Shown piece by piece: positions 71 through 50,829 of a stretch of 64,000 nt of DNA. The first letter of the stretch is position 1. Each line of letters begins with the position of its first letter. Source of the DNA: Deltaproteobacteria bacterium (lineage in GTDB: Bacteria > Desulfobacterota > Desulfovibrionia > Desulfovibrionales > Desulfomicrobiaceae); the NCBI GenBank assembly GCA_009929795.1, contig RZZR01000002.1, positions 1 through 64,000 of the forward strand, read 5' to 3'. The notes beneath the pieces were generated by a model. The model was given only the letters and a program-made list of their open reading frames with translations. It had not been told where the DNA came from and searched no databases. The position numbers and the translations under genes are program-made.

Positions 71-3000
71 ATGCCCAGAAAAAACCCACGCTCTTCAAAG
101 ATCCCTACCCCCGCAGGCAAATCGACCGGCCCAACCCCACAAGCCCCGGCCCTGTATGTGGCCGTGGGGGCCTCGGCCGGAGGCCTGGAGGCCATCGAGG
201 CCTTTTTCTCGGGCATGGCCTCGGAAAGCGGCCTGGCCTTCATCGTCATCCAGCACCTCTCGCCGGACTACAAGAGCCTGATGGTCGAGATCCTGTCCAA
301 GAAAACCCGGATGAAGGTCCAGCGGGCCGAAGACGGCATGGTCGTCCTGCCGGACAACATCTACCTGATTCCACCCAAGAAGAACCTGACCATCTTCCAC
401 GGCAAGCTGATCTTGAACGACCAGGAACACGTCAAGGGGGCCATCAATCTGCCCATCGACATCTTCCTCCGCTCTCTGGCCGAGGACCAGGGCGAAAAAG
501 CCGTGGCCGTCATTCTGTCCGGATCGGGCAGCGACGGCATGCGCGGCGTCCGGGCCGTCAAGGAGTTCGGCGGCATGGCCATGGTCCAGAGCGAAGAGTC
601 GGCCAAGTTCGACAGCATGCCCCGGGCGGCCATCTCCACCGGCCTAGTCGACTTTGTCCTCCCTCCCGACGAAATGCCGGACCGTCTCCTGTCCTTTGCC
701 AAGCACCCCTTTGTGGCCAAGGCCGAGCGGTCCGAAACCGCCATCAGCGACGAGGACGCCCTGAGCCGGATCTTTTCCATGCTCCGGGAAAAGTTCAAGG
801 TCGACTTCACCTTTTATAAGCCGAGCACCATCACCCGACGCATCGAACGCCGCATGTCCATCAACCGGATCGACGAGATCAGGGACTACGTGGCCTATCT
901 CCAGAAGTATCCGGCCGAAGCGGCCACCCTGTTCCGGGAATTCCTCATTGGCGTGACCCGGTTCTTTCGGGACCGCGAGGTCTTTGATCTCTTGAAGCAG
1001 AAATGGCTGGCCGAAATCCTGGACAGAGCCGAAAATAGGGAAACCCGATTCTGGGTGGCCGGGTGTTCCACCGGCGAGGAAGCCTACACCCTGGCCATCC
1101 TGGCCAAGGAGTGCATGCAGGCCTCGGGGAATTTCCGCGACCTCAAGATCTTCGCCACGGACATCGACCGGGACGCCGTCCAGTTCGCCGCCAACGGGGT
1201 CTATCCCGACAGCATCGCCGCCGACATTCCCGAGGGCCTGCTGACCAAATACTTCTACAAGCGTCAGGACAGCTACCAGATCGCCCGCAACATCCGGGAG
1301 ATGGTCGTGTTTGCCCAGCACAACCTGATCAAGGATCCGCCCTTCACCAACATCGACCTCATCTCCTGCCGCAACCTGCTCATCTACCTCCAGCCGCTCC
1401 TGCAGCGCAAGGTTTTCGAATTCTTCAATTTCTCCCTGAACCTGCGGGGCCTTTTGATTCTGGGCACCAGCGAAACCACCGGTGAGATGAGCGACTATTT
1501 CGAGAGCCTGGATCACAAATGCAAGATCTTCCGGACCAAGGGGCTGGTCAAGCATGTCAAGGACGGGATCATGCTTCCCCACGCCCCGGAAGTCCGGTAC
1601 CGCGACCTTGGCGGCCGTTTCACCGGGCTGCGCAGGGAGCAACAGGGCGCAGGCGATCGGGTTCTGGAGCGTTTTGTCGACGTCCTGACCGAGGACTACG
1701 TCGATCTGGCCGTGATCGTGAACGAGCAGATGGAGATCGTCCACATCATCGGCGACACCGAGGGCTTCTTCAAGGTCCCCTCGGGCAAGCTCTCCATGGA
1801 CATTTCCAAGATGGCGGCCAAGGACCTGGCCATACCCCTGTCCACGGGTATCCAAAAGGTCTTCCGCAAGCAGGAGCCACTGCATTTCACCAACGTCCGC
1901 ATCCGTCATCAGGACGGCCACAGAATGATCGACCTGCGGATCAAGCCCCTGCCCCAAAAAAAAGGCCAGGAGGCCTTGGCGGCCGTCTTCCTCGAGGAAG
2001 TCAGGAAGATGAAACCGTCGGATCCCGCCCAGGCCGTGCAGACCTACGACCTGTCCCGCGAGGCCGAGCAGCGGATCAAGGACCTGGAGCAGGAGCTGCA
2101 ATTCACCCGGGAAAACCTCCAGGCCACGGTGGAGGAATTGGAAACGGCCAACGAGGAGCTCCAGGCCACCAACGAGGAACTCCTGGCCAGCAACGAGGAA
2201 TTGCAGTCCACCAACGAGGAACTCCAGTCCACCAACGAGGAACTCTATTCGGTCAACTCCGAGTACCAGTCCAAGATCATGGAGTTGAGCGAACTCCACA
2301 ACGACGTGGACAACCTGCTCCGGGCCAGCCTCATCGGCCAGTTGCTCCTGGACGAGAACCTGGAGATACGTCGCTTTTCGCCCCAGCTCGTGGAGATCTT
2401 CAAGCTCCTGGACAGCGACGTCGGCCGGCCCCTGACCCACATTTCCCATCACCTGGCCAATGTCGACCCGATCAAGATCATCGAGGAGGTCCAGAAAACC
2501 GGACGCATGTCCGAACACGAGGTCCGGACCATGGACGGCCGATGGCACCTCATGCGCGTCGTCCCCTATGCCGTGGGCCCCAAGATATTTTCCGGGGCCA
2601 TGGTTTCCTTTGTGGACATCACCAGGATCAAGCAGGCCGAGGAAGACCTGCGGGCCAGCGAGGAAAAGCACCGCGGCCTGTTCGAGACCCTGCCCCTTGG
2701 CGTGGTCTACCATCTGGCCGACGGCACGATCTTTTCGGCCAACCCGGCGGCCGAACGGATTCTGGGCCTGACCCAGGACCAGTTGAAGGGCAAGACCTCC
2801 ATGGACCCGCGCTGGAAAATGATCGACGAAAAGGGGGCCAACGTTCCCGGAACCGAACACCCGTCGTCCATTGCCCTGCGGACCGGACGGATCGTCGGCC
2901 CGGTCATCCGGGCCGTGTTCCATCCCGACAGAAACGACTACATCTGGCTGTCCATCACGGCCACGCCCCTTTTCAGGCCCGGGGAGAAAATCCCCTATCA

Positions 3001-3817
3001 GGCCTACGCCATATTCGATGACATCACCGAAAAACGGCGCGTCGCCCAGGACTACCAGACCCTGTTCAAGGAAATGCTGAACGGGTTCGCCGTCCACGCC
3101 GTCATCTGCGACAACATTGGAAAACCCGTCGATTACCGTTTTCTGGCCGTGAACCCGGCCTTTGAACGAATGACCGGTTTGCGGGCCGAAGACATCGTCG
3201 GCCGGACGGTTCTCCAGGTTTTGCCCAATACCGAGCCCTATTGGATCGAGGCCTTTGGCCAAGTGGCCCTGACCGGCGAGGCCAAGACCTTTGACAACTA
3301 CGCCCGGGAACAGAACAAGCATTTCCGGGTCACGGCCTTCAGGCCGGCTCCGGACCAGTTCGCCTGCATCTTCGCCGACATCACCGAACAGAAGATGGCC
3401 GAGGAGGAAGTCAAGGCCGCCCATGACCGGCTCCTGACCGTTTTGGACAGCATCAACGCCCTCATCTACGTGGCCGACATGGAGACCCATGAAATCCTGT
3501 TCATGAACAAATACGGCCAGAACGACTATGGAGACGGTACCGGGCAGAAATGCTGGAAGGTGCTCCAGAACGGTTCCGGCCCATGCGATTTCTGCACCAA
3601 CGACAAGCTGGTGGATGCCGAAGGCAAACCCACCGGCGAGTACAGCTGGGAATTCCACAATCCCGTAACGGATCGGTGGTACGCATGTTTCGATCGGGCC
3701 ATACAATGGGTCGACGGACGGCTGGTGCGGCTGGAAAGCGCCTTTGATATCACCGACCGCAAGCGTTCCAAACGCGACGGCCGGGGTTCCGACCAGGAGG
3801 GTGACCATGAGCGATGA
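71..3817 (+). CDS. CheB-CheR-PAS hybrid chemotaxis-type sensor
   Basis: A 1248-residue fusion protein. Residues about 28-215 are a CheB-type methylesterase: GASAGG with Ser35, His62 in QHLSPD and Asp155 in GSGSDGMRG fit the catalytic triad. There is no receiver domain in front. Residues about 230-490 are a CheR-type SAM-dependent methyltransferase ([16 protein letters not shown]). A long coiled coil built of NEELQST heptads follows (about 668-745), then three or four PAS domains to the end, the last with a Cys-rich loop (CWKVLQ...CDFC). In this family the CheB/CheR parts often act with a sensor kinase instead of a flagellar chemoreceptor. The end overlaps the next gene, a PAS histidine kinase, by 11 bases, so the pair is probably one signalling unit. 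No transmembrane segment is visible, so it is likely cytoplasmic. Confidence 0.93.
2150..2254 (+). repeat. Five 21-base tandem repeats encoding a coiled coil
   Basis: Five in-frame 21-base units start at 2150, 2171, 2192, 2213 and 2234, each beginning AACGAGGA. They encode heptads of the form NEELQST inside the CheB-CheR-PAS protein. The repeats keep the frame and form the centre of the dimerising linker between the CheR and PAS parts. They are a coding repeat and not a mobile or CRISPR element. Confidence 0.85.
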
Positions 3818-5465
3818 TTCCAGGGAAGAAAAAAACTCCCTGCGGGAGCGGGCCGAGGCCCGTCTGTTTCAGTCTCCGCCGATGACCGAGAACCTTTCCG
3901 GAGCCGAACTCAAGGCCCTGATCCACGACTATCAGGTTCATCAGATCGAGCTGGAAATCCAAAACGAGGAGCTTCGGGAAACCCAGAAGCAGCTTGAGGA
4001 AGCCCGGGACCGCTTCGCCAGGCTCTTCAACGACGCCCCGGTGGGCTATCTGACGGTCGACGAGCACGGCATCATCGTCCAGACCAACGAAACCTTCGCC
4101 ACCATGGTCGGCAAGGAGGCCCATCTCCTCCCCACCAAGGCCCTGGCCGATTTCATCCTCGCCGCCGACCGATCCGTCTTTCACGGCCGGTTCAGGGCCT
4201 TTTTCAAAACCCCCAGGGGAAAGGAACTCGACTTTCGGCTGAAGTGCGCCAAAGGAACCCGGAACGTCCGGTGCGTCGGCCGGATCGAGGATGAATCCTT
4301 CAAGCCGTCCTCCCGTTCCGAATCCAGGATCCTGCTCGTGGTCTCGGACATCACCGCCCAGATCCGGGCCGAAACGGCCCTCCGGGAGCGGGAACGTTTC
4401 CTGAGCGCCATCCTTGAAACGACCCAGGATGGTTTCTGGATCATCGACGGACAGGGGCGGATCACCGAGGCCAATGCCGCCTATTGCCGCATGTCGGGAT
4501 ACAGCAAAGAGGAGCTGACCCGTCTGGGGGTCTCCGACCTGGAGGCCGTGGAGCGGTTCGAAGAGACCAAGGCCCGCATCGGGCGTATTGTCCAAAACAG
4601 ATCTGAACGCTTCGAGACCAGACATCGCCGCAAGGACGGAAGTCTGTTCGACGTCGAGGTTTCGGTCTCCCACCTGGACATCGACGGCGGTCGCTTCGTC
4701 TGCTTCTGCCGGGACATCAGCGCGCGAAAACGAGACGAAGATAGAATGGCCAAGATCGTCAAGGAACTCGAACAAGCCATTGTCGAAAAGGACGCCTTCT
4801 TCTCCATCATCGCCCACGACCTGAAGTCCCCCATGTCAGGATTCCTGTCCCTGACCCGGTCCTTTGCCGACGACGTCATGGGCTGGTCCGCAGCCGAATT
4901 GAAAACGATCTCCCAGGCCCTGCTCAAGGGGGCCGAAGGAGTGACGGAACTCCTGGACAATCTTCTCCAATGGGCCATGTTGCGACGAGGAATGATCGAG
5001 TATGAGCCGCGATCCTGCGATTTTCGGTCCATGGTCGCCAGGGCCATGGACGCAGTTCGTCCCATGGCCGCCCTGAAATCCATTTCCTTGGAGAATCGGG
5101 TTCCCGACCATGTCCAGGCCCTGATCGACCAACCCATGATGGACACGATCCTCAGAAACCTCCTGGGCAATGCCCTGAAATTCACCCACCGAGAAGGAAC
5201 GGTCTCGGTCATGGCCGAACGCCGGGGGTCCATGATTCACGCGGCTGTCCAGGACAACGGGGTCGGCCTGGACACGAAGGAGCTCTCACGACTCTTTTCC
5301 CTCAACCAAAAGACCTCCCGGCCCGGAACCGAAGGGGAAAAAAGCAGCGGCCTGGGTCTCATCCTCTGCCGGGACTTCATCGCCAGGCACGGCGGCCGGA
5401 TCTGGGCCGAAAGCGACCCCGGCCGGGGGGCGACCTTCCATTTTACGGTGCCGGCCGGGGAATGA
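3807..5465 (+). CDS. PAS sensor histidine kinase
   Basis: A 552-residue cytoplasmic kinase. The ATG at 3807 is chosen because AGGAGG lies at 3795-3800; a longer frame from 3744 has no such site. The N-terminus is charged and coiled, followed by two PAS domains (about 60-190 and 195-310). The dimerisation/phosphoacceptor helix carries His337 in IIAHDLKSPMSG, and a HATPase_c domain follows with NLLGNALKF (N box), DNGVGL and SSGLGLILC (G boxes). It overlaps the CheB-CheR-PAS gene by 11 bases and probably receives signal input from it. No cognate response regulator is adjacent. A strong bidirectional hairpin follows immediately. Confidence 0.9.
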   Translation: MSDDSREEKNSLRERAEARLFQSPPMTENLSGAELKALIHDYQVHQIELEIQNEELRETQKQLEEARDRFARLFNDAPVGYLTVDEHGIIVQTNETFATMVGKEAHLLPTKALADFILAADRSVFHGRFRAFFKTPRGKELDFRLKCAKGTRNVRCVGRIEDESFKPSSRSESRILLVVSDITAQIRAETALRERERFLSAILETTQDGFWIIDGQGRITEANAAYCRMSGYSKEELTRLGVSDLEAVERFEETKARIGRIVQNRSERFETRHRRKDGSLFDVEVSVSHLDIDGGRFVCFCRDISARKRDEDRMAKIVKELEQAIVEKDAFFSIIAHDLKSPMSGFLSLTRSFADDVMGWSAAELKTISQALLKGAEGVTELLDNLLQWAMLRRGMIEYEPRSCDFRSMVARAMDAVRPMAALKSISLENRVPDHVQALIDQPMMDTILRNLLGNALKFTHREGTVSVMAERRGSMIHAAVQDNGVGLDTKELSRLFSLNQKTSRPGTEGEKSSGLGLILCRDFIARHGGRIWAESDPGRGATFHFTVPAGE

Positions 5466-5527: not shown

Positions 5528-5953
5528 CTATTTGCCGGTCTTGGGGCCGGATCCGATTTTGGCCTCCTCGGGCTTGGCCTTAGGCACGACGCTCTTGGGG
5601 GCCTTGGACACGTCCTCGGGCTTGGGCCCGGCCGCCTTTTCACCGCCGATGGGGCACGGGGCCGCAGGCTTTTCCTCGACCGGTTCGGAGGGCTTGTCCG
5701 AAATGCTCAGCCCCTCGCCCTCATCCGCCGCGGAAGTCATCCAGCCCAACTCCATCTCGAACTTGGCCTTGCCTTCCTTGACCTTGGCCTCCACTTCCAC
5801 GTCCACGACCTGGCCGGGAAGAAGCTCCACCGAGGTCTCGCCCTGCTCGACCACGATCCGGCCGGCCTTGAAGGCCTTGACCAGACTTTCCAGGTATTCG
5901 ACGGCCGCAGCCGTTTCCATGGTCTGCTTGAACACGACTTTCTTCTTTTCCAT
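5528..5953 (-). CDS. Amphi-Trp domain protein with Pro/Lys-rich tail (GAK operon)
   Basis: A 141-residue protein whose first 75 residues match the amphi-Trp pattern: two amphipathic helices (AAAVEYLESLVKAFKAGRIV), then alternating hydrophobic strands (VVDVEVEAKVKEGKAKFEME) ending in the signature Trp (LGW). The rest is a low-complexity, Pro/Glu/Lys/Ala-rich tail that looks disordered. The function of amphi-Trp domains is unknown. The family was named for its recurrent place beside HprK-related kinase and ATP-grasp genes, which is the context here. It is the last gene of the operon, 26 bases after the CofD-like gene, and may be a small substrate or adaptor. Confidence 0.82.
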   Translation of the reverse strand: MEKKKVVFKQTMETAAAVEYLESLVKAFKAGRIVVEQGETSVELLPGQVVDVEVEAKVKEGKAKFEMELGWMTSAADEGEGLSISDKPSEPVEEKPAAPCPIGGEKAAGPKPEDVSKAPKSVVPKAKPEEAKIGSGPKTGK

Positions 5954-5979
5954 TGATCCACTCCTTGTTGATTTCGGTT

Positions 5980-7164
5980 TCAGGTCAGCGAAAGCAGGGC
6001 CTCGGTCAAGAGACCCGGATCGATGAACGGCGAGGACTCTGGACTGACCAGGGACGCGTCGATGGCCATCACCCCGTGCTGATGAAGCCGCAGGCGCTCG
6101 ACCTTGCCCTGATACCGTCCGGCCCTGGTATCCAGCAGGACATACTTGAGGACCGCGTCGTTGGACAGGCCCTCGTCATCCTGCTTGAGATAGCGCAACA
6201 ATTCCCGGACCTGGTCTTCAACGCTCATGCCCGGACATTCAGGATCAGGGACCGTGCCGGGAACAAAGACCTTGGGGCAGGGATTGGCCCCCACGGCCCG
6301 GCCAACGCCTCGGGGCAGGATCGGGGCCACCAGGCTGGAATAGAAGCTGCCCATAGGATAGCAGATCAGATCGGCGCCGTCGATCAAAGCCCGGATCTTG
6401 TCCCGGATCTCGACCTCGGCTCGGTTCCCGGCCTTGTCGGCCAGATAGATATCCCGGACCGGGCTGGAAATGGGCCCGGCCTCCTTGCCGGTCAAAAGAT
6501 GCTGGCCCACGATTCTCTCCCCGTTCTCCAGTTCAGCCACCAGGTCGAGGTCAGAGTTGACCACGGCCCGGACCGTGCCCCGAACCTGGACCAGCATGGA
6601 GAAAAGGTAGATGACCGGGTCCAAATGCCCGCCGTTCTCCAGGTATCCAGCGGCCAGAATCAGGTTGCCGATGCTGGCCCCCTGGAGCCGGAAGCCCCGG
6701 GGCATGCGCTGGAGAAAGGTCTCCAGACTGCGGCGGATGATCTTGCGCATGGGGTCCACGATCTCGGCCACCAAGGAATGTTCCCCGGCGGCCATGGCCC
6801 GGAGTTCGTCCACAAGAATTTCATAGTGCCCATCCTTGGGAAAACGGTGGGCAAAAAGCCGAAAGATGGCCGGGTTGCCCAGGAGACTTTGGTCGGCCAG
6901 GGCCATGAGCCGGTTGCGGATGTCGCCGATGGCCGGCATGGCAAAGGCCCGCCGCAACTCGGCCGAACTGCCCCCCGAGTCGAACGGCGTGATCAGGTGG
7001 ATGGAATTGTGAGTGTAGGCCACCAGCCGCCGGCTGGTCTCCCGCAAGGCCGTGCCTCCGCTGAAGAAGAGGATGGCCGGTCCCAGATCCGGGCTGCGCC
7101 GGTATCGCTCCAGGCGGACCCGGTCCGGAATGCGGACCCGGCGATCGATGGACAGGCTGGTCAT
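5980..7164 (-). CDS. GAK system CofD/YvcK-like protein
   Basis: A 394-residue member of the CofD/YvcK fold. The early FFSGGTALRE loop, the LITPFDSGGSSAELRRAF segment and PAIGDIRNRLMAL match the nucleotide-sugar binding signatures of YvcK/CofD, and ICYPMGSFYSSLVAPIL parallels the later GPGSlyTS loop. CofD transfers 2-phospholactate-derived groups to deazaflavin, while YvcK (GlmR) binds UDP-GlcNAc and regulates carbon flux. The divergence here and the lack of F420 genes argue against true CofD activity. The start codon overlaps the stop of the kinase gene by four bases (ATGA), so the two are translationally coupled. In TIGRFAM terms it corresponds to the GAK system CofD-like family; its substrate is unknown. 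Confidence 0.85.
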   Translation of the reverse strand: MTSLSIDRRVRIPDRVRLERYRRSPDLGPAILFFSGGTALRETSRRLVAYTHNSIHLITPFDSGGSSAELRRAFAMPAIGDIRNRLMALADQSLLGNPAIFRLFAHRFPKDGHYEILVDELRAMAAGEHSLVAEIVDPMRKIIRRSLETFLQRMPRGFRLQGASIGNLILAAGYLENGGHLDPVIYLFSMLVQVRGTVRAVVNSDLDLVAELENGERIVGQHLLTGKEAGPISSPVRDIYLADKAGNRAEVEIRDKIRALIDGADLICYPMGSFYSSLVAPILPRGVGRAVGANPCPKVFVPGTVPDPECPGMSVEDQVRELLRYLKQDDEGLSNDAVLKYVLLDTRAGRYQGKVERLRLHQHGVMAIDASLVSPESSPFIDPGLLTEALLSLT

Positions 7165-8255
7165 GCAGCCACTCCGGGTCGGCCATGGCGAAGGAAGTTC
7201 AGACAGGTGTCCGCGGCCAGGATGAAATCCACTCCACCGGAGAATTCCAGGACCAAGGACCCGGCCAAGGCCCGGACATAGACCTCGGGACCCGGTTCCC
7301 GGTTTATTCCCGGACGGGGCAGAAAAAAGAGGCCAGGTGATTTCATGAAGGCCGGCAAAAGATCTCGTCTGGCATCGAGGTCAACGACCTCGACCCGGCA
7401 TTTCCCCTGACCCCGCTTCCAGTTGAGGATGGCCAGCCCGTCCATGGGCGCCTCCAGACAGAACCGGCCCGGGCCGAAGCACTGGTCGAGAAAGGCGTCG
7501 TGTTTGGCCTCCAGGCTCCACAACTCGTCCGGAACCATGGCCTCGTAAATGCCCCGCTCGGTCTCGGTCAGCATTCCGGCCAGGTCGGGGTTGCCCATGA
7601 TCGTTCCCGGGTTGATCCGGGGAAGCTTGGCCACCCCGTGCATGGTCATCGGCTCTCCGGCCTGGACCACGAGCCGATCGTTGCTGACAAAGGAAGTTCC
7701 CCGGCTCATGAGGTGGAGGGCCAGGGTCGACTTGCCGGCCCCGGAGAAACCCGCCAGAGCCAGGCCACGGCCATGGGCGGCCACTCCGGCCGCATGGCCC
7801 AGGATTCCGCCCTGGTTGAGCATCCAGTCGATGTGCCGGTTGTTGATGAAGTTGACCACTTGGTTGGGGTTGTCCAGACATGGCCCCACTGCGGCGTGCA
7901 GATCGCCGCCAAAAGCGAAGACCATGCCGGTCAGGCGCTTGCGGACGATACGGCCGTCGGGCAGATCGACGAACTCTTCCTTGATCTTGGTCTTGCCCGG
8001 GTCCGGCGGTCTGGTCTCGAAGGCCAGATCCGTCAAAGGCGGCTCGCCCTGGTGGGCCGTGACGACCATGACCGGTTCGAAATCGGGCTTCAAGGACACG
8101 AAGGGCCCGAAATACTCCTTCAATTCCCGAATCAGGCCGTCGTGGTTGGACAGAAGTTGAATCCGAAATCGGCCAAAGGCCAAGTTCAGAGCGAATCCAG
8201 CCGGATAGGCTCGATGCAACTCGTTGACCAGGGATGATACGGTCGGTCCGGTCAT
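7161..8255 (-). CDS. HprK-related kinase B (GAK system)
   Basis: A 364-residue protein with a Walker A loop GFSGAGKST at residues 169-177 (Lys175), followed by TLALHLMSRG, as in the C-terminal kinase domain of HPr kinase/phosphorylase. The preceding region (residues about 1-160) is not a normal HprK N-terminal domain, and the length exceeds the about 310 residues of HprK. HprK phosphorylates a serine of HPr. No HPr gene is visible here, so the substrate may be one of the small operon proteins. It overlaps both neighbours by four bases (ATGA): the ATP-grasp gene upstream and the CofD-like gene downstream. Confidence 0.85.
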   Translation of the reverse strand: MTGPTVSSLVNELHRAYPAGFALNLAFGRFRIQLLSNHDGLIRELKEYFGPFVSLKPDFEPVMVVTAHQGEPPLTDLAFETRPPDPGKTKIKEEFVDLPDGRIVRKRLTGMVFAFGGDLHAAVGPCLDNPNQVVNFINNRHIDWMLNQGGILGHAAGVAAHGRGLALAGFSGAGKSTLALHLMSRGTSFVSNDRLVVQAGEPMTMHGVAKLPRINPGTIMGNPDLAGMLTETERGIYEAMVPDELWSLEAKHDAFLDQCFGPGRFCLEAPMDGLAILNWKRGQGKCRVEVVDLDARRDLLPAFMKSPGLFFLPRPGINREPGPEVYVRALAGSLVLEFSGGVDFILAADTCLNFLRHGRPGVAA

Positions 8256-9151
8256 GCCCCCAGCCTCCCCAATACATGTTTGGCATAAAGCTCGGCCGCG
8301 TCCAGGCCGCGAGCCTCGAGTATGCCCCGGAAGCCCCCAAAGGCCGAGACCTCGAAAACCATGGGGCCCCGTGATGTCTCGACCACGTCGACGCAGGTGA
8401 ATTCAAGACCGAACAGGGCCTGGGCCCGCTCGGCCACCTCGATACTCTCGGGCAGGGGGTCGCAGGCCTCGTACTTGCCGCCAGAAACCGTGGTCGTGTT
8501 CCAGGCCGACCCGTCCGTGGAGCACCGGGCGTAGGTGGTCACATATTTTCCGCCCAGAAAGACAATGCCCAGATCCCGGCCGTTCAGGTCGATCATCTGC
8601 TGGATGTACATGATGGCGTTGTCCCGATGGTAGTCCCGGATCTTCTCGGCGCATTGGCCATTGTCGGCGATAACGCACATACCTCGGCCCTTGGAGGTGT
8701 ACAGGGGTTTGAACACGGCCTGATTGTACATTCCGACGGCCTCGATGGCCTCGTCCACGCTCTCGGTTATGGTCGTCGGAGGCATGGGGATTCCGGCCAT
8801 ACGCATGGTCACCGTGCAGGTCAGGCGGTTCAGGACCCGGATAATGGCCTCGGGCGAGGAAAAGACCCTGGTCCCCCTGGATTCGAGATAACGGAGGATT
8901 TCCAGACGATCCAGAAGCAGGGGCGAGTACCTGGCCCCGATCTTCTTGATCATCAGACCGTCCATGGTTGCCAGGTCCACACCCCGGTACCAGACCTGGC
9001 CCGAGTCGAGATCGGCCCGGACCTCTTCCATGTCCACCAGCAGCCTCTGCCCGGTCAACCGGCCCACGGTGTCGGCCAGCAGTTCCGAAGACCATCCGCC
9101 GATGGTCCCCACCACGGCCATGCGTGGCCCGGTCGTATTCATATCGGTCAT
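8252..9151 (-). CDS. GAK system ATP-grasp enzyme (RimK-like)
   Basis: A 299-residue ATP-grasp protein of RimK-like size. The N-terminal alpha/beta part (MAVVGTIGGWSSELLADTVG) is followed by a central region with AVFKPLYTSKGRGM, which supplies the ATP-binding Lys and Gly-rich loop. The C-terminal acidic/metal site is CVDVVETSRGPMVFEVSAF. RimK-type enzymes ligate amino acids, often Glu, to protein or small-molecule carboxylates, so peptide-bond formation is the expected chemistry and the acceptor is unknown. An AAGGAG site lies directly before the ATG at 9151; a second in-frame ATG at 9142 has better spacing and could be the true start. The end overlaps the kinase gene by four bases. Confidence 0.85.
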   Translation of the reverse strand: MTDMNTTGPRMAVVGTIGGWSSELLADTVGRLTGQRLLVDMEEVRADLDSGQVWYRGVDLATMDGLMIKKIGARYSPLLLDRLEILRYLESRGTRVFSSPEAIIRVLNRLTCTVTMRMAGIPMPPTTITESVDEAIEAVGMYNQAVFKPLYTSKGRGMCVIADNGQCAEKIRDYHRDNAIMYIQQMIDLNGRDLGIVFLGGKYVTTYARCSTDGSAWNTTTVSGGKYEACDPLPESIEVAERAQALFGLEFTCVDVVETSRGPMVFEVSAFGGFRGILEARGLDAAELYAKHVLGRLGA

Positions 9152-9181
9152 GCTCCTTTGTCCTTGTGTTGTCGGGCCCGT

Positions 9182-10837
9182 TCAAGCCCGAAGGACCCGG
9201 TCAGGAAAGACATACTCGTGGACGCCTGATCCATCAAGGGCGGCCAGATTCTCGAACAGGTAATGGGCCCGGTTGAACATGTCCCGGGCAAAGGATCCGT
9301 CCAGCTCGAACCGGGTCGAGGTGCACAGGGACCGGGCAACGGCCAGGGCCAGGCGGACCTCGAAGGTCGAATCCTTCTGCTCGGCGGCAAAGGCCCGGGC
9401 GAAGTGCAGAAACGAGTCCATGACCGTTTCCAGGCGTTCGCGCAGACCGGCCTCGAAGACAGGCATTCTGAAATTGGAAACCAGAAAAACCGAAACGTCC
9501 TGGACATAGTCGAACATCCGGGACCGATACACATCGATGTACCGGACCCGCTGCTCGCCATGGTCGTAAACGATGTTGTTGCAGTTCATGTCCCCGTGGA
9601 TGAAGATCGAGAATGGCGCCGTCAACTCCGATTCCAATTTTCGACATGACGAAATCAGGAAAACCGTGGAAGGAATGGTCGTGCCGTTCAGCACGCTCTC
9701 CTCCCGCATGATCCGGGGGTGGACCTGAAGCACGGCCTCCAGTCGATCCCGAAGCTGGGAGATGAAATTCACCCGCACCGGCCCTGGGACCAGGGTCGAC
9801 TGCCAGATGGAGGCCAGGGTCTCCTGCAAAATGAAACAGGCGTTCTCCAGGATCTCGGACTCTGAGGACAGAATGACCTCGTCCATGGTGCACCCGGGCA
9901 AAAATTCGACCAACATGGAGGCGCTGCCCTCGACGCTGTCCTCGGAATAGCTGAAAACCTTGGGTACCAGGCCCGGGAACAGGGCATCCCATCGCTCCAG
10001 GTTTTCCTTCTCGCCATGTATCTTGGCCTGTGTCCCTTCCTTGAAGATGCTGCCCGTGGCTGTTTCCAGGCCGTGGTCGTCCTTTTTCTCCACCCGCCCG
10101 ATCCGGCACCCGGACCGCGTCCCCCAGATGGCCTGAAAGTCCACCTCGTCCAGATGGCCGGCAAATCCGCTCTTGCTCAGATTCCGCTGCAGGGCCTGGA
10201 ATTGGTGGATCTTGATCTTCTCTCCGATGACCGCGAAGAGAATGGCTTCCCCGATGTTCAGCAGGGAATCCCCGATCCGCTCTAGATACCGGAAGATGAA
10301 CAGCACCGTGACCAGATCCTGCACGTCCCGGGTCGTGCTTTGAAGGCGGTCCATGATGTGGCCGAAGGTCAGCTTGTACATTTTGTCAAGGCTGTTCTCG
10401 GCCCGGCAGATCTCCAGGGCCAGGGTCACGTCGTGCTCCTCCATGGCCGGGAGGACATGGTTCAGGCCTTCTTCGATGACCAGGAGATGGCTCTCGTAGT
10501 CGAATTCGTGGAGAAAGGTGAAATGCCGGAAATACTGGACCTGGCGGACGATGTTCACGCAGAAGTCGGCGATCCGTTCCAGGTTGACGGCCACGATGTG
10601 CATGGACCGGACCTTGTTGATCTCGCCCTTCTGAAGCTTCCGCCCGCCCAGGAGTTCCGAGAAGCACTTGTTCTCGATGATGTTCTTCAAATTGTCGATG
10701 TAGTCGTCCCGGGCCACGATCTTGTCGTACAGGGCCGAGTTGGGCTCGTTCAGGAAGTCGAACGTGGCCAGGACCTGTCCCCGGACGTCCAGGATCAGAA
10801 ACCTGAAGTTCTCCATCAAGCCTTCAAAGGTGATCAT
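9182..10837 (-). CDS. PhoU domain fused to aminoglycoside phosphotransferase-like kinase
   Basis: A 551-residue two-domain protein. Residues about 1-215 form a PhoU-type six-helix unit with two copies of the ERIAD/ERIGD signature (AVNLERIADFCVNIV and RYLERIGDSLLNIGEA). Residues about 225-540 are an APH/choline-kinase-like fold: FIHGDMNCNNIVYD places the catalytic Asp416 and metal-ligand Asn421, and YIDVYRSRMFDYVQD gives the second acidic motif. PhoU proteins sense phosphate status through PstB/PhoR; APH-fold kinases phosphorylate small molecules or proteins. The fusion suggests a phosphate-responsive kinase within the GAK operon. GGAG lies nine bases before the ATG. It is 30 bases upstream of the ATP-grasp gene. 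Confidence 0.85.
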   Translation of the reverse strand: MITFEGLMENFRFLILDVRGQVLATFDFLNEPNSALYDKIVARDDYIDNLKNIIENKCFSELLGGRKLQKGEINKVRSMHIVAVNLERIADFCVNIVRQVQYFRHFTFLHEFDYESHLLVIEEGLNHVLPAMEEHDVTLALEICRAENSLDKMYKLTFGHIMDRLQSTTRDVQDLVTVLFIFRYLERIGDSLLNIGEAILFAVIGEKIKIHQFQALQRNLSKSGFAGHLDEVDFQAIWGTRSGCRIGRVEKKDDHGLETATGSIFKEGTQAKIHGEKENLERWDALFPGLVPKVFSYSEDSVEGSASMLVEFLPGCTMDEVILSSESEILENACFILQETLASIWQSTLVPGPVRVNFISQLRDRLEAVLQVHPRIMREESVLNGTTIPSTVFLISSCRKLESELTAPFSIFIHGDMNCNNIVYDHGEQRVRYIDVYRSRMFDYVQDVSVFLVSNFRMPVFEAGLRERLETVMDSFLHFARAFAAEQKDSTFEVRLALAVARSLCTSTRFELDGSFARDMFNRAHYLFENLAALDGSGVHEYVFPDRVLRA

Positions 10838-10868
10838 CGCCGGTCTCCGGAATTCCTTGTGGACTCTG

Positions 10869-11141
10869 TCAACTGCTGATGACCATGTCTTCGGAAGGCG
10901 CGACCGAAGTTATGGCCATTTCCTTCCATTCGACCTTCAGATTGATCTTGCACGACTCGTTTTTCTTCTTGGCCTTGACCGAGAACCGGAGCATGCCTCC
11001 GGGCCGCATGACCATTTCCTCGCCGTCGGTGCTGAGCACGATCTTGCCCTTGGCGAACCCTTCCTCCAATGACTGGAGATATCGTTGGATCGACGTGTTG
11101 TCCTGCATGGACTCGAAGGAAAACTTGCCCTCGTCGCTCAT
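10869..11141 (-). CDS. Amphi-Trp domain protein, single-domain (GAK operon)
   Basis: A 90-residue protein consisting almost wholly of one amphi-Trp domain: FSFESMQDNTSIQRYLQSLE helices, a GKIVLSTDGEEMVMRPGG hinge, then strands (LRFSVKAKKKNESCKINLKV) ending in Trp (EWKEM). It lacks the long tail of its operon paralogue at 5528-5953. It lies 31 bases before the PhoU-kinase gene and 18 bases after the PHP-like gene. No catalytic residues are evident. A binding or carrier role is the simplest guess. Confidence 0.83.
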   Translation of the reverse strand: MSDEGKFSFESMQDNTSIQRYLQSLEEGFAKGKIVLSTDGEEMVMRPGGMLRFSVKAKKKNESCKINLKVEWKEMAITSVAPSEDMVISS

Positions 11142-11159
11142 GGTCTTTCTCCTGTTAGC

Positions 11160-12344
11160 CTAGCCGTCCAGGCGGTTTCGATACTGTTCGATGACCAAAG
11201 ATCGGTCCAATCCACAGAGGACCAGCCGTTTTCTGATGCCCGGGTCGTCCCAGGCCGGCTGATACCCGACTTCACGGGAGGCCTTTTCCCCATCCTGCAT
11301 CTCCGGGTCCTTGATCTTTTCGCCCAAATGGGTGTCATCGCCCATGAACACGAGCAGACGGCGATCATGTGGGGCGCAGGCGTTCTTGCGCTCAACGGCG
11401 GTGATCAGGAACTCGGTGTAGCGCTGCGACTGGGGGTTCCAGACCTCGTAGCCGTCAACGTCGTAATCGGCCAGAAGGATGGGCCAGAATTGTTCCGGGT
11501 GGGGAACCACGATCCCGGCCCCCAGGGCCCGGGCCTCCTCGATGATCTCCGAGGTCCGGTAGAAGTAGTGGAGGGGAAACTCGGCCTTGACCAGGACCTT
11601 GACGGTCTTGAGATAGACTTGGACCCGGTCGATGAAAGTGTCGCCGTAGTCTTCGCGCAAGGCGTTGAACCAGTTCCGCAGCAGCTTGTTCTTGATGGCG
11701 TTGGCCGGAACCTTGTCCAGACTGGCTTCCAGCAGGTCGCGAACCTTTGTCACGCCGGTGCGGACGAAGTCCACCAGAACGCGGTCGGCCCCGGTTTCCC
11801 GGGCCGCGGCCCGTATCCTGTCCTCGTTGGGCCCGACAATGGTCTCCATGAAATCGAACAATTGGGAGGATCGGTACTTGTGGGTGTGGGCCAGCATGGA
11901 CCGAAGAACATGGGCACCCTCGAGGCGGTCGGCCCGAAAATGGAGAAGCAACTGGACCTTCTGGTTGAACCCTCGGGAATAGCAGTCCACCTCCACCCCG
12001 GCATACGGCCCAAGGGTCATGAGCTCATTGTGCTGGGTGGGAATGACCAGTTCGGACTCCCGGTTGGGAAACATGTCGTGGACCCTGTCCATGGCTACGT
12101 CCAGGGGGATGAACTCCGGATGCCAATGCACGGCCAGAACCGATTTCTGCCGGGCGTGGACCCGATCCGGCCGGCGAAGGACATCCAGTTGCTCTGGGGT
12201 CAACTCCTCGGACACGACCCGCACGAACCTGGCCCGATCCTCGTCCGTCACCTCCGAAGTTTCCCGGGCCGGGTCCATGAAAGCCCCGTTTCTGGGCACG
12301 GCCGCAATGTCCGGCCTCCGCCCGACCCTACTTGTGCTGGTCAT
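11160..12344 (-). CDS. PHP-like metal-dependent hydrolase (GAK operon)
   Basis: About 394 residues from the ATG at 12344, chosen because AAGGA lies eight bases upstream; longer frames run through the previous gene. Conserved-looking metal ligands follow the PHP (polymerase and histidinol phosphatase) order: HWH at residues 73-75, TQHNELM with His105 and Glu107, a VVPHPEQFWP segment with His282, and a late GDDTH with Asp337 and His339. PHP enzymes hydrolyse phosphoesters with a trinuclear metal site. Assignment to PHP is my inference from the motif order; I do not recognise a closer family. The gene overlaps the upstream XXXCH gene by 17 bases. Confidence 0.65.
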   Translation of the reverse strand: MTSTSRVGRRPDIAAVPRNGAFMDPARETSEVTDEDRARFVRVVSEELTPEQLDVLRRPDRVHARQKSVLAVHWHPEFIPLDVAMDRVHDMFPNRESELVIPTQHNELMTLGPYAGVEVDCYSRGFNQKVQLLLHFRADRLEGAHVLRSMLAHTHKYRSSQLFDFMETIVGPNEDRIRAAARETGADRVLVDFVRTGVTKVRDLLEASLDKVPANAIKNKLLRNWFNALREDYGDTFIDRVQVYLKTVKVLVKAEFPLHYFYRTSEIIEEARALGAGIVVPHPEQFWPILLADYDVDGYEVWNPQSQRYTEFLITAVERKNACAPHDRRLLVFMGDDTHLGEKIKDPEMQDGEKASREVGYQPAWDDPGIRKRLVLCGLDRSLVIEQYRNRLDG

Positions 12345-12834
12345 GGCACTGTTCCTTGCAGGCCTCCAGCGCCTCCGCGGCCTGGCGCGACCGTTCCAGA
12401 TCGCCGGTCTCGAGTGAGACCCGCAACTCGTCGCAAAGAGCCGTGAACTGCTCGTAGTGTTCGTCGCCATAGCCCTCGTAGGCCACCATCAGTTCACAGT
12501 CGTGCAGAAATACCGAAACGATTTCCGAGGAGGGCAAGGTACCGGAATCCAGGGAGGCGATGATCTCCCGAAAATAGACCTTCATCCGTTTTTTGAGTTT
12601 TTTGTACGAAGGGGGTTGATTCTCTTCATCGTGCTCTCGGGCCTTGATCTTGACCCGGACCGTGAGACTTGGCCCATCCTGACGAAGGCTGACCTTGATC
12701 TTGCTGAAGGCCTGGATTTCGATCCCGTGTTCTTGCAGAATCCCCCCGCCCCTTTCCACGGAATCGGCCAAAGACCGGAAGAAGAGTCCGGCTTCGTCCC
12801 GCTGGATGATGGTTTCAAATTTCTGTGATGACAT
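12328..12834 (-). CDS. GAK system XXXCH protein, first gene of the operon
   Basis: A 168-residue cytoplasmic protein; the ATG at 12834 has GGGAGAAGG just upstream, so an in-frame extension to 12906 is unlikely. The C-terminus ends with ACKEQCHDQHK, the Cys-X3-Cys-His ending after which this GAK family is named. Residues about 4-65 (KFETIIQRDEAGLFFRSLAD, a GGGILQE turn, then LTVRVKIKAR) resemble the two amphi-Trp proteins downstream, although the terminal Trp is missing. The middle is Lys-rich and helical. The Cys-rich tail could bind metal or serve as the site of modification by the operon's kinase or ligase; neither is shown. Confidence 0.78.
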   Translation of the reverse strand: MSSQKFETIIQRDEAGLFFRSLADSVERGGGILQEHGIEIQAFSKIKVSLRQDGPSLTVRVKIKAREHDEENQPPSYKKLKKRMKVYFREIIASLDSGTLPSSEIVSVFLHDCELMVAYEGYGDEHYEQFTALCDELRVSLETGDLERSRQAAEALEACKEQCHDQHK

Positions 12835-13244
12835 GCCTTCTCCCGATGATCGAATGTTGTGTCCCAGGACAACGCGGGTCCGGCCCGCAAAATATCGAAC
12901 GTTCAATTGGAAGTATTAGTCCAAGGCATGTTACAATTTCATGACATCGCCCCCCCTTCTTGGTGACAGACGTGATTTTGTCGACAACCAGGCCGAAAAC
13001 TCAATATACTCAGCACCAAAAGAATTCCTCACTCATGCCGTGAAATTCTTCGCTGGTCGTCGGACGATCTTGACCGAATTAAATCCGTTTCCAAAATTTG
13101 ACGTCATCGTCATCCAAGAGAAACCAAAACCATCCAGTATTCGAGTATGGTGATTCAAAGGAATCAATTCACGGCCAAGCAAAGGCATTCTCGCATCCAG
13201 CGTGAAAACTTGATGGTCAAAAAACTCGAACTGGAGGAAAATAG
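12835..13244. other. Divergent intergenic region upstream of the GAK operon
   Basis: This 410-base gene-free stretch separates the leftward GAK operon from the rightward PstS-OmpA gene and is clearly more AT-rich than its flanks. It must hold both promoters. On the minus side I see an eight-base palindrome GAACGTTC at 12897-12904 and a small GC hairpin at 12873-12887, but no convincing -35/-10 pair. On the plus side a candidate sigma-70 site lies at 13070-13098. A 70-codon frame at 12941-13153 has no good ribosome site or family features and is not called. Confidence 0.7.
13070..13098 (+). promoter_or_regulatory. Candidate sigma-70 promoter for the PstS-OmpA gene
   Basis: TTGACC at 13070-13075 and AAAATT at 13093-13098 are separated by 17 bases in an AT-rich stretch about 150 bases before the start at 13245. 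The -10 box matches the consensus only in part. The position and spacing are the support. Confidence 0.35.
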
Positions 13245-15143
13245 ATGCAGAAGGAAATGAGCACCCTGGCGACCATACCGGGGGTCCATGGTGTCATGGC
13301 CAGGAGCAGGGACGGAAAAATCGTGGATTTCGGCCTGAAGGACTATCTCGGACACGATGGCCTCAGATCGCTGCGGAGACTCATAGCCAAATTGCCAGAT
13401 CGTCCGAAATCAAGACATCGCCTGCGGTTCGCCCCGATCCCGTGGTCCGGGGTCAACGGCTTGATCGCCCTGTTCAACGACGGGGAACTTTTGGTGCTCA
13501 CCTCCCCGGAAGCGGATCAAAAGGCCATCGCCAAGTCCATTGAAGCCCATGAAGCCATCTTGTCGATGTTCTTCGTTCCAAAGGACGATGATACGCTTGA
13601 GATACAGTCATCCAAATTTGATCCGACCCCAAAAAACCGCCGGCTACCACGGGCATTGCTGGCCATGTTCTTGGGAATGATCGTCGTCGGAGGCGCTTGG
13701 ATGATGAACCTTCCCACGATGCTCTTGTCGAACACCGTCGGGAGCGGAACGGCCCAGGCCTTGCCCGAATCCGAGGGACAGGGTCCCACGCCCTCGGGAC
13801 CGCCGCGAACCATATTGCGAATTCAAGGCTCAAACACCATCGGAGCCAAACTTGCTCCAGAACTTTCCAATGCCTATCTGGACGCCATTGGTGCCAGGGA
13901 CATTCGGGTAGAACCCGGCAAGAAACCCGAAGAATGTGCCGTTCTCGCCAGCCATGCCAACGGTGAACAGATCCGGATCGATATCGAAGCCCACGGATCA
14001 TCGACGGCCTTCAAAGGCCTCGGCCAAGCAAGCTGCGATATCGGCATGGCCTCGCGACCGATAAAAAATAAGGAAATGGAAATACTGAACAGGGATGGCC
14101 TGATGAACGACTCGGGCTTCGAGCATGTTTTGGGTCTGGACGGTATTGCCGTCATCGTCCATCCGGCAAATGAAATAGAGGCGTTGACCATTGATCAAAT
14201 CGCCGCCATTTTTTCCGATGAAGTGCATGACTGGAGCCAAATTCCCGAAAGCGGCATCCAGGGCCAGGTTGTCATCGCCGCCAGGGACGAAAAATCCGGC
14301 ACATGGGAACTGTTCAAGGAAAAGGTGCTCCAAGACAAGACGCTCTCCCCTCTGGCCGAACGAATAGAGGATAGCCGGGCCCTATCCGGAATGGTTTCCA
14401 GAAACATGCGGGCCATCGGTTTCATCGGCCTGCCCTATATCCTCTCCTCCAAGGCGGTGGCCGTGGCCGAAGGGTCGAACAAGCCCGTGTTCCCGACACC
14501 ATTCACCGTGGCCACCGAAGACTACCCCCTAGCCCGAAGACTTTTTCTCTACACCCTTGACGATCCTTCGAGTGAGCATGCCCGACCCTTCCTCGAGTTT
14601 GCCCTGAGCAAAAATGGACAGCACCATGTCGAGCAGACCGGATTCGTTCCCCTGACCATAAGCGAACACGTCATTTCTCCTCCGGACGAGTCGCCCGAAG
14701 CGTTCTTCAAGCTGGCACGGTCCTCCTCGCGTCTCTCGATGGCCTTTCGCTTCAAGCCGGGATCTGATCGTTTGGACAGCAGGGGCCAAAAAGATGTCGA
14801 ACGCCTCGTGGAATTTCTGAACACTCATCAAAACCGTGGCCGATCATTGACTCTTGTCGGTTTTGCCGACTCCATCGGCGCCGACGAAGTCAACGACAGC
14901 CTCTCGTTGAGCCGAGCGCAGTCCGTAGCCCAAACCTTGATTTCTCGCGGGCTTCCCATTCACTCCGTTCTTGGGTTGGGCAGCAGGCTCCCGGTTGCCG
15001 ACAACGCCACCCAAAACGGCAGGGAAAAGAACAGACGGGTCGAGGTCTGGGTCGATCATCGGCCTCAGGCCCTGCTCGATCCCAAACTGGAATCGGCGCA
15101 TGAAAAGGTGCTCCATGACAAAAACAAAAATGTGTCGGCATGA
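13245..15143 (+). CDS. Membrane-anchored PstS-like/OmpA fusion protein
   Basis: A 632-residue protein in four parts. Residues 1-110 form a soluble domain (TIPGVHGVMARSRDGKIVDF ... GELLVLTS) with the pattern of Roadblock/LC7 proteins, an uncertain call. A single transmembrane helix lies at about 136-155 (ALLAMFLGMIVVGGAWMM). Residues about 190-475 are a PstS-type periplasmic phosphate-binding fold (RIQGSNTIGAKLAPELSNAY, DIGMASRPIK, IAARDEKSGTWELF). Residues about 500-605 are an OmpA-like peptidoglycan-binding domain with NGREKNRRVEVWV. Topology would put the N-terminus in the cytoplasm and the binding/OmpA parts in the periplasm. GGAGG lies before the ATG. It is transcribed divergently from the GAK operon, hinting at a phosphate-sensing link. 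Confidence 0.85.
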   Translation: MQKEMSTLATIPGVHGVMARSRDGKIVDFGLKDYLGHDGLRSLRRLIAKLPDRPKSRHRLRFAPIPWSGVNGLIALFNDGELLVLTSPEADQKAIAKSIEAHEAILSMFFVPKDDDTLEIQSSKFDPTPKNRRLPRALLAMFLGMIVVGGAWMMNLPTMLLSNTVGSGTAQALPESEGQGPTPSGPPRTILRIQGSNTIGAKLAPELSNAYLDAIGARDIRVEPGKKPEECAVLASHANGEQIRIDIEAHGSSTAFKGLGQASCDIGMASRPIKNKEMEILNRDGLMNDSGFEHVLGLDGIAVIVHPANEIEALTIDQIAAIFSDEVHDWSQIPESGIQGQVVIAARDEKSGTWELFKEKVLQDKTLSPLAERIEDSRALSGMVSRNMRAIGFIGLPYILSSKAVAVAEGSNKPVFPTPFTVATEDYPLARRLFLYTLDDPSSEHARPFLEFALSKNGQHHVEQTGFVPLTISEHVISPPDESPEAFFKLARSSSRLSMAFRFKPGSDRLDSRGQKDVERLVEFLNTHQNRGRSLTLVGFADSIGADEVNDSLSLSRAQSVAQTLISRGLPIHSVLGLGSRLPVADNATQNGREKNRRVEVWVDHRPQALLDPKLESAHEKVLHDKNKNVSA

Positions 15144-15264: not shown

Positions 15265-16119
15265 CTACTTGTCCAGCCATTTTTTGACCAGGTCAGGATT
15301 CTCCTTCATGAACCGCTTGGCATTGGCGGCAGGATCGGCGTCCTTTTCCTGATTCCAGGCCATGAGCATCTGCAACTGGTTGGGGTTGTCGTAGGAAAAA
15401 CGATCGAGGATGGCGTAGACTTCGGGCATGTCTTTCTTCAGCCCCTTGCGGACAATGGTGTCGATATGCTCCTCCTCGCCCAGGACACCCTTGGGGTCTT
15501 CCAGATACTTGAGTTCCCAACGGCCGAACATCCAGTGAGGGGACCAAGCCGTGACCACGACCCACTTCTTGTTCTTGATGGCGTCGGACAGGGCCGCGGT
15601 CATGGTCGCCCCGCTGCCTTCCATGAGTTCCAGCTTGTCAAGTTTGTATTCCTTGATGGCTTTTTCCGACAGGCCCATGAGTCCGGCCCCGGGGTCGATG
15701 CCAATGATCTTGCCGTCGAACTTGTCGGCGTTGGCGTTGAGTTCCTCGATGGAGGAAATGGTCACATAGGTGGGAACTGCCCAGCCCAGACGGGCCCCGC
15801 CGGTAATGGGTCCCAGGTTCTCTACCTTGTCCTGGACCTTGTCGAAATAGGTGGCATGTGTCACCGGCAGCCAAGCCGTGACCATGGCGTCAACGTCCCC
15901 GGTGCCGACGGCCTGCCACATGGCCGCTCCGGCCACGGGAAAAAGTTCCACCTCATATCCCTGCTCTTCGAGCACGGCCTTAGCCAGATTGGTGCTGGCC
16001 GTGGCGCAGTCCCACTCCACGTAGGCCAGTCGGACCTTGCCCTTGCCGGCCAGGACCGGAGTGGCGATCATTGCCGTCAAGGCAAGACAACCAACTAAAA
16101 GTATAGCGATTCTTTTCAT
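15265..16119 (-). CDS. opuAC: Glycine betaine/proline-betaine ABC transporter, binding protein
   Basis: A 284-residue periplasmic binding protein with a cleavable signal peptide (MKRIAILLVGCLALTAMIA, cut near VLAG). The mature start KVRLAYVEWDCATASTNLAK is typical of the OpuAC/ProX quaternary-amine binding fold, as are FPVAGAAMWQAVGTGDVDAM and the Trp-rich AWSPHWMFGRW segment that would form the aromatic cage. It ends just before a strong terminator and follows the permease gene by 22 bases, so it is the last gene of an opuAA-opuAB-opuAC operon for osmoprotectant uptake. Confidence 0.93.
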   Translation of the reverse strand: MKRIAILLVGCLALTAMIATPVLAGKGKVRLAYVEWDCATASTNLAKAVLEEQGYEVELFPVAGAAMWQAVGTGDVDAMVTAWLPVTHATYFDKVQDKVENLGPITGGARLGWAVPTYVTISSIEELNANADKFDGKIIGIDPGAGLMGLSEKAIKEYKLDKLELMEGSGATMTAALSDAIKNKKWVVVTAWSPHWMFGRWELKYLEDPKGVLGEEEHIDTIVRKGLKKDMPEVYAILDRFSYDNPNQLQMLMAWNQEKDADPAANAKRFMKENPDLVKKWLDK

Positions 16120-16141
16120 GTCAACTCTCCTTGTTCAGGTT

Positions 16142-44643: not shown

Positions 44644-44719
44644 ATCACGTCCTTGTCTGTTCAAGAGTTGATGATCCGGCCCAATCGAGCGTCGAGAAAA
44701 CCCCTTGTCTGACGAAACT

Positions 44720-47307: not shown

Positions 47308-47363
47308 TCGTGATTTCGTCCTTGATGGGCAAGGCTTCTTGCCGCCCTGCCCGGTGACGGTTC

Positions 47364-48044: not shown

Positions 48045-48077
48045 GCTCGGCTCCCGTGTTATTTTCTCGATCCCGGT

Positions 48078-48944: not shown

Positions 48945-48950
48945 TGTCCT

Positions 48951-49844: not shown

Positions 49845-49877
49845 GGGACCCCTTCTGAAATGTGATTCCAAATTGTT

Positions 49878-49907
49878 CTTCCGGTCCGGGTCTTCCCGGA
49901 CCGGAAG
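49878..49907 (-). other. Intercistronic hairpin pstS-pstC
   Basis: A perfect 13-base-pair stem (49878-49890 with 49895-49907) has a four-base loop. On the transcribed strand it is followed by AACAATTT and not by a clean T tract. It probably acts as a 3' stabiliser or partial terminator so that pstS is made in excess over the permeases. Confidence 0.75.
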
Positions 49908-49928
49908 GGATAAAGGTCGAGAACGGTA

Positions 49929-50741: not shown

Positions 50742-50811
50742 TGTCTCCTCCTGTTGGTTTATGGTGTGGTTGAAATACTTGGCGTTGCCGAGTGTGTATG
50801 TAAATTTGAAT

Positions 50812-50829
50812 TGTGACAGTTTGATGACG
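50812..50829 (-). promoter_or_regulatory. Pho box upstream of pstS
   Basis: The minus strand reads CGTCATCAAACTGTCACA: two seven-base half-sites (CGTCATC, TGTCACA) with starts 11 bases apart, as in the PhoB consensus. A further CTGTCACC lies 21 bases upstream (50844-50851). An AT-rich TTTACATA follows at -10 distance. The site is 71 bases before the pstS ATG and would be the PhoB-dependent promoter of pstS-C-A-phoBR-pstB-phoU. Confidence 0.75.

Follow-up and report, generated by a model that had tools for sequence, protein, structure and literature searches.

The GAK operon of a Desulfovibrionales contig, a predicted member of the Pho regulon

Gene content and organization

The 64,000-nucleotide stretch analysed here (contig RZZR01000002.1 from a member of the Desulfomicrobiaceae; hereafter the 64-kb window) contains, at positions 5528–12834, eight tightly spaced minus-strand genes closed by a strong terminator. 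Four of them belong to the GAK gene set of NCBIfam (TIGR04355–TIGR04358), and the block is called the GAK operon in this paper; we predict with high confidence that it is controlled by PhoB and forms part of the Pho regulon. In order of transcription, the genes encode an XXXCH protein (12328–12834; TIGR04358, E 4e-29), a putative PHP-fold phosphoesterase assigned from its predicted structure (11160–12344), a short amphi-Trp protein (amphi-Trp protein 1, 10869–11141; TIGR04354, 65 bits; PF20068, E 5e-8), a PhoU domain fused to an APH-type kinase (PhoU-APH, 9182–10837; PF01895, E 3e-25; PF01636, E 2.5e-7), a GAK ATP-grasp enzyme resembling RimK, LysX and MptN (8252–9151), an HprK-related kinase B (HprK-B, 7161–8255), a GAK CofD-like protein nearest to YvcK/UPF0052 (5980–7164) and a second amphi-Trp protein (5528–5953; TIGR04354, 66 bits), whose sequence ends in a Lys/Pro/Ala-rich tail. 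All four GAK families scored above their cut-offs (101 against 40 bits for TIGR04358, 435 against 300 for TIGR04356, 481 against 200 for TIGR04355 and 516 against 340 for TIGR04357), as did both amphi-Trp proteins (TIGR04354 cut-off, 31 bits), and Pfam placed the PhoU (89 bits) and APH (31 bits) domains in a single protein. These searches bear out a first-pass annotation made from the letters alone, which had named the four families, the two amphi-Trp proteins and the PhoU-APH fusion.

The genes are separated by a 17-base overlap (genes 1 and 2), then by gaps of 18, 31 and 30 bases, two 4-base overlaps and a gap of 26 bases, as that annotation had described (gaps of at most 31 bases, overlaps of 4 to 17). 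The strong closing terminator that it had proposed was also found: a symmetrical intrinsic hairpin at 5513–5465 on the minus strand (-43 kcal/mol, z -8.7), which would serve the convergent gene ending at 5465 as well. Rfam and tRNA scans of the window gave no matches, and a generic promoter/terminator pattern scan of the window gave no gain over shuffled sequence.

The annotation had further regarded the block as intact and the system as uncharacterised. Forty loci of the same order were read in detail, the one in the window included; all eight genes occur in the same order in 13 of them, while 7 loci are short of one gene and 4 of two. At these counts, the eight-gene block is far beyond chance. 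The remaining loci are lone CofD genes, mini-loci of XXXCH and CofD with or without amphi-Trp, and other partial sets. No other flanking gene was constant in the 40 loci, and the genes flanking the operon in the window were ruled out as additional members. Our literature search found no paper describing the GAK operon. With respect to the NCBIfam set, all four families are present here, adjacent and in a single operon, and the set is extended by the PHP, PhoU-APH and amphi-Trp genes, which are about equally conserved. The NCBIfam names give no function; the operon is placed here in the Pho regulon. As far as the literature searched shows, this assignment is new.

Pho boxes upstream of GAK operons

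A predicted Pho box, TGTCATGAAATTGTAAC, consisting of two repeats with an 11-base period, is located in the intergenic region before gene 1 (12946–12930, minus strand), about 96 bases upstream of it, and is the sole exact match to TGTMAY-N5-TGTMAY in the window. A box with one mismatch, CGTCATCAAACTGTCAC (50813–50829), precedes the probable true start of pstS in the pst operon, which is also in the window. Since 3 matches with at most one mismatch were found in the window and 1.15 were expected by chance, these matches are no proof by themselves. For the test on other loci, the pattern had been fixed beforehand from the TGTCATGAAATTGTAAC site and the E. coli consensus. Allowing one mismatch on the coding strand, the box was present upstream of 16 of 70 dereplicated GAK operons and of 6 of 361 control genes from the same loci (Fisher P 1.6e-9), one of the six being pstS itself, and spacers other than 5 gave matches in only 0–3 of the 70 operons. 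In the unreduced set of 86, with both strands considered, 23 boxes were observed against about 1.5 expected from shuffled upstream regions.

The result was replicated with 23 new operons, 6 of which had the box at spacer 5 (the 11-base period) and 0–2 at any other. In the pooled set, a GTNAY repeat with the 11-base period was found in 24 of 91 operons and 18 of 406 controls (0–4 of 91 at other spacings), with G+C contents matched between operons and controls (52.2 and 53.5 per cent). The form given in the literature, YGTNAC-N5-YGTNAC, was found without mismatch in 10 of 91 operons and 5 of 406 controls (P 4e-5). In independent experimental work (PMC3333781, PMC6456213), the PhoB box of D. vulgaris was defined as a direct repeat of (c/t)GT(n)AC, and the site upstream of por proven by electrophoretic mobility shift assay, AGGTTACAGCATAGTTAC, corresponds to this motif read from the opposite strand. 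According to PMC3333781, PhoB targets include phosphate transport regulators (PhoU), which may or may not be the PhoU-APH protein of GAK operons.

Linkage to pst and phoU genes

GAK genes are also found next to genes for phosphate transport. In locus L086, PstS, PstC, PstA, PstB, PhoU, XXXCH, PHP and the genes that follow are encoded in this order on one strand; PstB and PhoU immediately precede XXXCH in L039 and L124; pst genes lie just upstream of GAK in L098, L104, L091 and L132; and L045 has the order PstB-PhoU-HprKB-CofD. Altogether, 14 of 120 loci contain a pst component, several of them sharing one transcription unit with GAK. PstB occurs in 8 loci within 2.08 Mb, compared with about 0.5 expected from the 26 PstB above cut-off in about 99 Mb of relatives, a background that was drawn from one order and may be an underestimate elsewhere.

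The divergent neighbour of the operon in the window itself (13245–15143, plus strand) encodes a PstS-like phosphate-binding domain fused to OmpA (PF12849, E 2.5e-24; PF00691), with a TIGR02136 score of 166 bits that is below the 207-bit cut-off. About 31 kb from the GAK operon lies the genome's pst-pho operon (43969–50864, minus strand) for PhoU, PstB, PhoR-like, PhoB-like, PstA, PstC and PstS proteins, assigned by Pfam and, above its cut-off, TIGR00972; PstC (48951–49871) was assigned by position. The Pho box and the pst linkage, the main clue connecting the system with phosphate starvation, had been overlooked in the first-pass annotation.

Enzymes encoded by the operon

The PhoU-APH protein retains the ATP lysine K266, E276, H414-G-D416, N421 and D435 as invariant residues in 21 sequences from many phyla, and its HGDxNxxN loop is kept in all of them. 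Because these catalytic residues are invariant, it is likely to be an active kinase, which would be under the control of its PhoU domain.

The previously unnamed second gene had no Pfam or NCBIfam family match. Its AlphaFold2 model (predicted local distance difference test score, pLDDT, 92) had as its only significant PDB matches in Foldseek the PHP phosphoesterases RNase AM (9etk) and BAD_1165 (3e0f/3o0f), with E 3e-5 to 8e-5 and probability 1.00. In 49 sequences, the PHP-type residues H73xH75xE77, H105, E118, H135, H282 and D337xH339 are invariant or nearly so, as are the motifs HWHPE, TQHN, GVEVD, LLHF, HPE and GDDxH; judged by motif, this His/Asp/Glu set would provide the metal ligands. 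The model thus identifies the product as a putative PHP phosphoesterase, and the PHP-like fold proposed by the first-pass annotation is backed by structure prediction despite the absence of a sequence-family match. Onishia and L148 have no PHP gene at the locus; the operon there encodes instead an RHG phosphatase-Nudix fusion, a second RHG phosphatase and a calcineurin-like phosphoesterase. Since these non-homologous phosphatases stand in for PHP, the replacement in Gammaproteobacteria suggests that removal of phosphate is a needed function. Small phosphorylated molecules are the usual targets of Nudix, RHG and metallophosphatases.

The ATP-grasp enzyme has MptN as its next-best NCBIfam match (151 bits) and matches RimK/LysX structures with E 1e-21. 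It shares the ATP-grasp fold and RimK-like residues, including D255 and E267, with the RimK/LysX/MptN ligases, but belongs to a hypothetical-equivalog family of its own (TIGR04356), and the metal-site Asn of E-x-N is replaced by Ser, so that EVN reads EVS (EVSAFGGF). HprK-B matches HPr kinase structures (E 9e-6) and conserves H154 (the HPr-kinase His), the GFSGxGKST P-loop and NDR; its DD motif reads ND, with the first Asp changed to Asn in nearly every aligned member and the second kept, and its score against TIGR00679 is 28 bits (cut-off 240). A second HprK-B copy in one genome (G053:C21:56100-57200) is broken by a TAG stop codon. The CofD-like protein matches TIGR01826 (YvcK) with 109 bits, PF01933 (CofD) with E 1e-34 and UPF0052 structures with E 2e-34; by these comparisons, its closest relatives are YvcK/UPF0052-type proteins and not true CofD.

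XXXCH and amphi-Trp proteins

The AlphaFold2 model of the XXXCH protein (pLDDT 93) consists of a beta-alpha-beta3 domain followed by a four-helix bundle. The N-terminal domain is related to amphi-Trp (hhalign probability 90), and the confident PDB matches of the bundle are mostly cytochrome c' (Foldseek probability 1.00, template modelling score about 0.6 by target length, E only 0.01–0.1); the sequence profile also matches cytochrome c' chains over the heme-motif helix (E 0.003–0.01). As modelled, XXXCH combines an amphi-Trp-like domain with a four-helix bundle of the cytochrome c' type. The protein ends in CHxxxK, and the sequences of the family terminate at a constant distance past the CH motif, the Cys of which is replaced by Ser in one member (L077). 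In common with cytochrome c', XXXCH has the bundle and, within its last helix, the CH of CXXCH, but the first heme Cys is missing, so that the full heme motif is not present, no signal peptide was evident on inspection by eye, and the amphi-Trp-like domain is fused in front. This suggests that the name XXXCH is explained by a degenerate cytochrome c' motif.

Trp71 is the sole invariant residue across 48 amphi-Trp proteins, among which no conserved Ser, Thr, Tyr, His, Lys or Cys was found; the second copy often bears a Lys/Pro/Ala-rich tail. Of 17 tested genomes with the other GAK enzymes, 13 lack XXXCH, and it occurs without a neighbouring ATP-grasp or kinase gene in the minimal loci L049, L054 and L062, which contain only XXXCH and the CofD-like gene, with an amphi-Trp gene also in L049 and L062. 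An obligatory role of XXXCH as ATP-grasp substrate was ruled out, as the protein is absent from many systems.

Because 20 neighbourhoods of amphi-Trp genes outside GAK showed no pst link and no constant partner, an amphi-Trp gene alone does not predict a phosphate function. A separate amphi-Trp subfamily (FKSEEPKS..) is found outside GAK in many Desulfobacterota (L152–L165) with no constant neighbour seen, and Haloferax volcanii has a member.

Distribution

CofD_rel_GAK was above cut-off in 169 of 199 sampled genomes of the order, and many further genomes retain a lone CofD-like gene. In three f2 genomes (G001, G032 and G017), HprK-B is encoded away from the GAK locus; it was not found in G002 and G037, and gave only a weak match in G170. 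Among 395 genomes of the phylum, ATP-grasp was above cut-off in 24 and HprK-B in 24, with 23 in common and one more having a truncated ATP-grasp match, and in each of the 24 genomes holding both, the two genes are direct neighbours in the same orientation. Amphi-Trp genes were present in 25 of 25 genomes with ATP-grasp or HprK-B, compared with 52 of the other 370. In the same sample, 11 genomes of genus g12 gave no ATP-grasp, HprK-B or amphi-Trp matches; most sampled g12 genomes keep the CofD-like gene.

A scan of loci with named hosts yielded 80 loci, many on cut contigs, with PhoU-APH in 76, HprK-B in 73, PHP in 62 and CofD in 59. The hosts are Desulfobacterota, Onishia isolates (Gammaproteobacteria) and metagenome-assembled genomes (MAGs) labelled Zixibacteria/GN15, Eisenbacteria, FCPU426, Phycisphaerae, SAR324, Nitrospirae, Atribacteria and Spirochaetia, labels that may carry binning errors. 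The same gene order recurs across the Desulfobacterota and MAGs assigned to several other phyla. In one locus (L171:5095-8386), PHP, amphi-Trp and PhoU-APH genes occur without ATP-grasp or HprK-B and are followed by a PD-(D/E)XK nuclease gene; these three genes are possibly a core sub-module.

Proposed role and alternatives

We assign the GAK operon to the Pho regulon because of the box upstream of it, the enrichment of such boxes before its relatives, the linkage to pst and phoU and the PhoU-kinase fusion. Under low phosphate, PhoB is predicted to bind the box at 12930–12946 and turn the operon on. The PhoU domain would gate the PhoU-APH kinase, the activity of which would track the status of phosphate transport; PhoU-APH, the HprK-like kinase and the ATP-grasp enzyme may then act jointly on a small phosphorylated metabolite, the YvcK-like protein may bind a nucleotide-sugar-type ligand, and the PHP phosphoesterase would take phosphate off again. 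Amphi-Trp and XXXCH would be non-catalytic scaffold or ligand-binding subunits, not a modified substrate. That a small phosphorylated metabolite is what is made or turned over is a tentative proposal, to which we give somewhat less than an even chance, and we are evenly divided on the reading as a whole, the most likely of those considered, namely a phosphate-starvation module of the Pho regulon making or turning over a phosphorylated small molecule.

Several points weigh against this reading. About three quarters of the GAK operons are without a recognisable box by the strict pattern, and some, though not all, of these are inside pst operons; PhoU gating is argued from the domain fusion; relatives of the HprK-like and RimK-like enzymes can act on proteins; and in some genomes the gene for the HprK-like kinase lies elsewhere or is lacking, so that a strict linear pathway is not required.

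The first-pass annotation had described a modification or phospho-regulatory system in which the small proteins are the modified targets. The kinases and the phosphoesterase are plausible as active enzymes, and the phospho-regulatory idea goes in the right direction. A system of protein modification or phospho-relay, with the amphi-Trp and XXXCH proteins as targets of the kinases and the ligase, would fit the presence of amphi-Trp genes in every genome with ATP-grasp or HprK-B, the addition of amino acids to protein C-termini by RimK/LysX relatives, the phosphorylation of small proteins by HprK relatives and the fixed end of XXXCH after its CH motif. However, this end is accounted for by the cytochrome c'-like last helix, amphi-Trp proteins have Trp71 as their one invariant residue, and XXXCH is both absent from most enzyme-bearing genomes tested and present in enzyme-free loci; the idea of modified small proteins was not upheld, and we regard such a system as unlikely. 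The same low probability is given to a phosphate-tuned network of the Firmicutes HprK-HPr/Crh-YvcK type, in which flux in central carbon metabolism or the cell envelope would be matched to phosphate status by HprK-B and the YvcK-like protein, via protein targets outside the operon. The GAK operon, like the Firmicutes network, combines an HprK-like P-loop kinase, here with the catalytic His, and a YvcK-like protein in one genetic unit, its gammaproteobacterial version includes a Nudix gene, HprK/P responds to phosphate and pyrophosphate, and the Pho boxes fit this explanation equally well. In contrast to that network, the operon has no HPr/Crh or other HPr-like protein, has Asn for the first Asp of the DD motif, is regulated by phosphate and not by sugar (as predicted here), and includes four extra conserved enzymes or subunits; ATP-grasp and PhoU-APH have no counterpart in the network.

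Synthesis of an F420-like or pterin-like cofactor tail, by a CofD-like transferase and then a glutamate ligase of the MptN/RimK type, is suggested by the second-best match of the ATP-grasp enzyme to MptN and by the PF01933 match, and is very improbable: the CofD-like protein resembles the binding protein YvcK more closely than it does true CofD, the neighbourhood has no constant flavin or pterin gene, and PhoU, HprK, PHP and the Pho boxes are left unexplained.

A further and rather improbable reading is that the operon both produces and breaks down a soluble compound, hyperphosphorylated or pyrophosphorylated, serving as phosphate signal or store. PhoU-APH and HprK-B would add phosphates, ATP-grasp would add the last group, and PHP, or the Nudix, RHG and metallophosphatases in Gammaproteobacteria, would strip phosphates. 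If this were true, bacteria would have an equivalent of inositol pyrophosphate signalling or, alternatively, the operon would be the missing pathway behind the glucose-diphosphate granules reportedly observed long ago in Desulfovibrio gigas.

With known operons of the Pho regulon (pstSCAB-phoU and other PhoB-controlled genes), the GAK operon has in common the PhoB-type box, the recurrent pst-phoU linkage and an internal PhoU domain. We know of no Pho-regulon operon that combines two kinases, an ATP-grasp ligase, a YvcK-like protein and small amphi-Trp proteins. The assignment brings an orphan gene set within reach of tests as part of phosphate physiology, in sulfate reducers as in other phyla, and provides a kinase built onto a phosphate-signalling domain. 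The starvation phenotypes of D. alaskensis offer a ready setting for testing the role of GAK: under phosphate limitation, polyphosphate granules are lost and other inclusions appear, and a phoU homologue has a late-starvation phenotype, which does not identify GAK (PMC5193443). A locus-tag search established no link between D. alaskensis phoU (Dde_2835) and GAK.

Other neighbouring genes

The region at 71–5465 of the window, convergent with the GAK operon, encodes a CheB/CheR/PAS-type hybrid regulator, assigned by sequence, and then a PAS sensor histidine kinase. The region at 15265–18183 is a probable glycine-betaine-type ABC transporter operon, with an ATPase containing CBS domains (16990–18183) and a substrate-binding-like protein (15265–16119), the latter recognised from its sequence only. 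Elsewhere, a gene for phosphatidylserine decarboxylase, paired with one for a distant LGT-like membrane protein, lies near GAK in Nitrospirae and SAR324 MAGs (L139:12718-14824 and L140:4630-6765). A large protein with PHP-like and family-4 glycosyltransferase parts is encoded near GAK in different phyla (L091:15684-18164, L136:4276-6678 and L139:1414-3867); its gene in L091 has its own Pho-box-like site, and the protein is possibly a glycolipid synthase of phosphate limitation.

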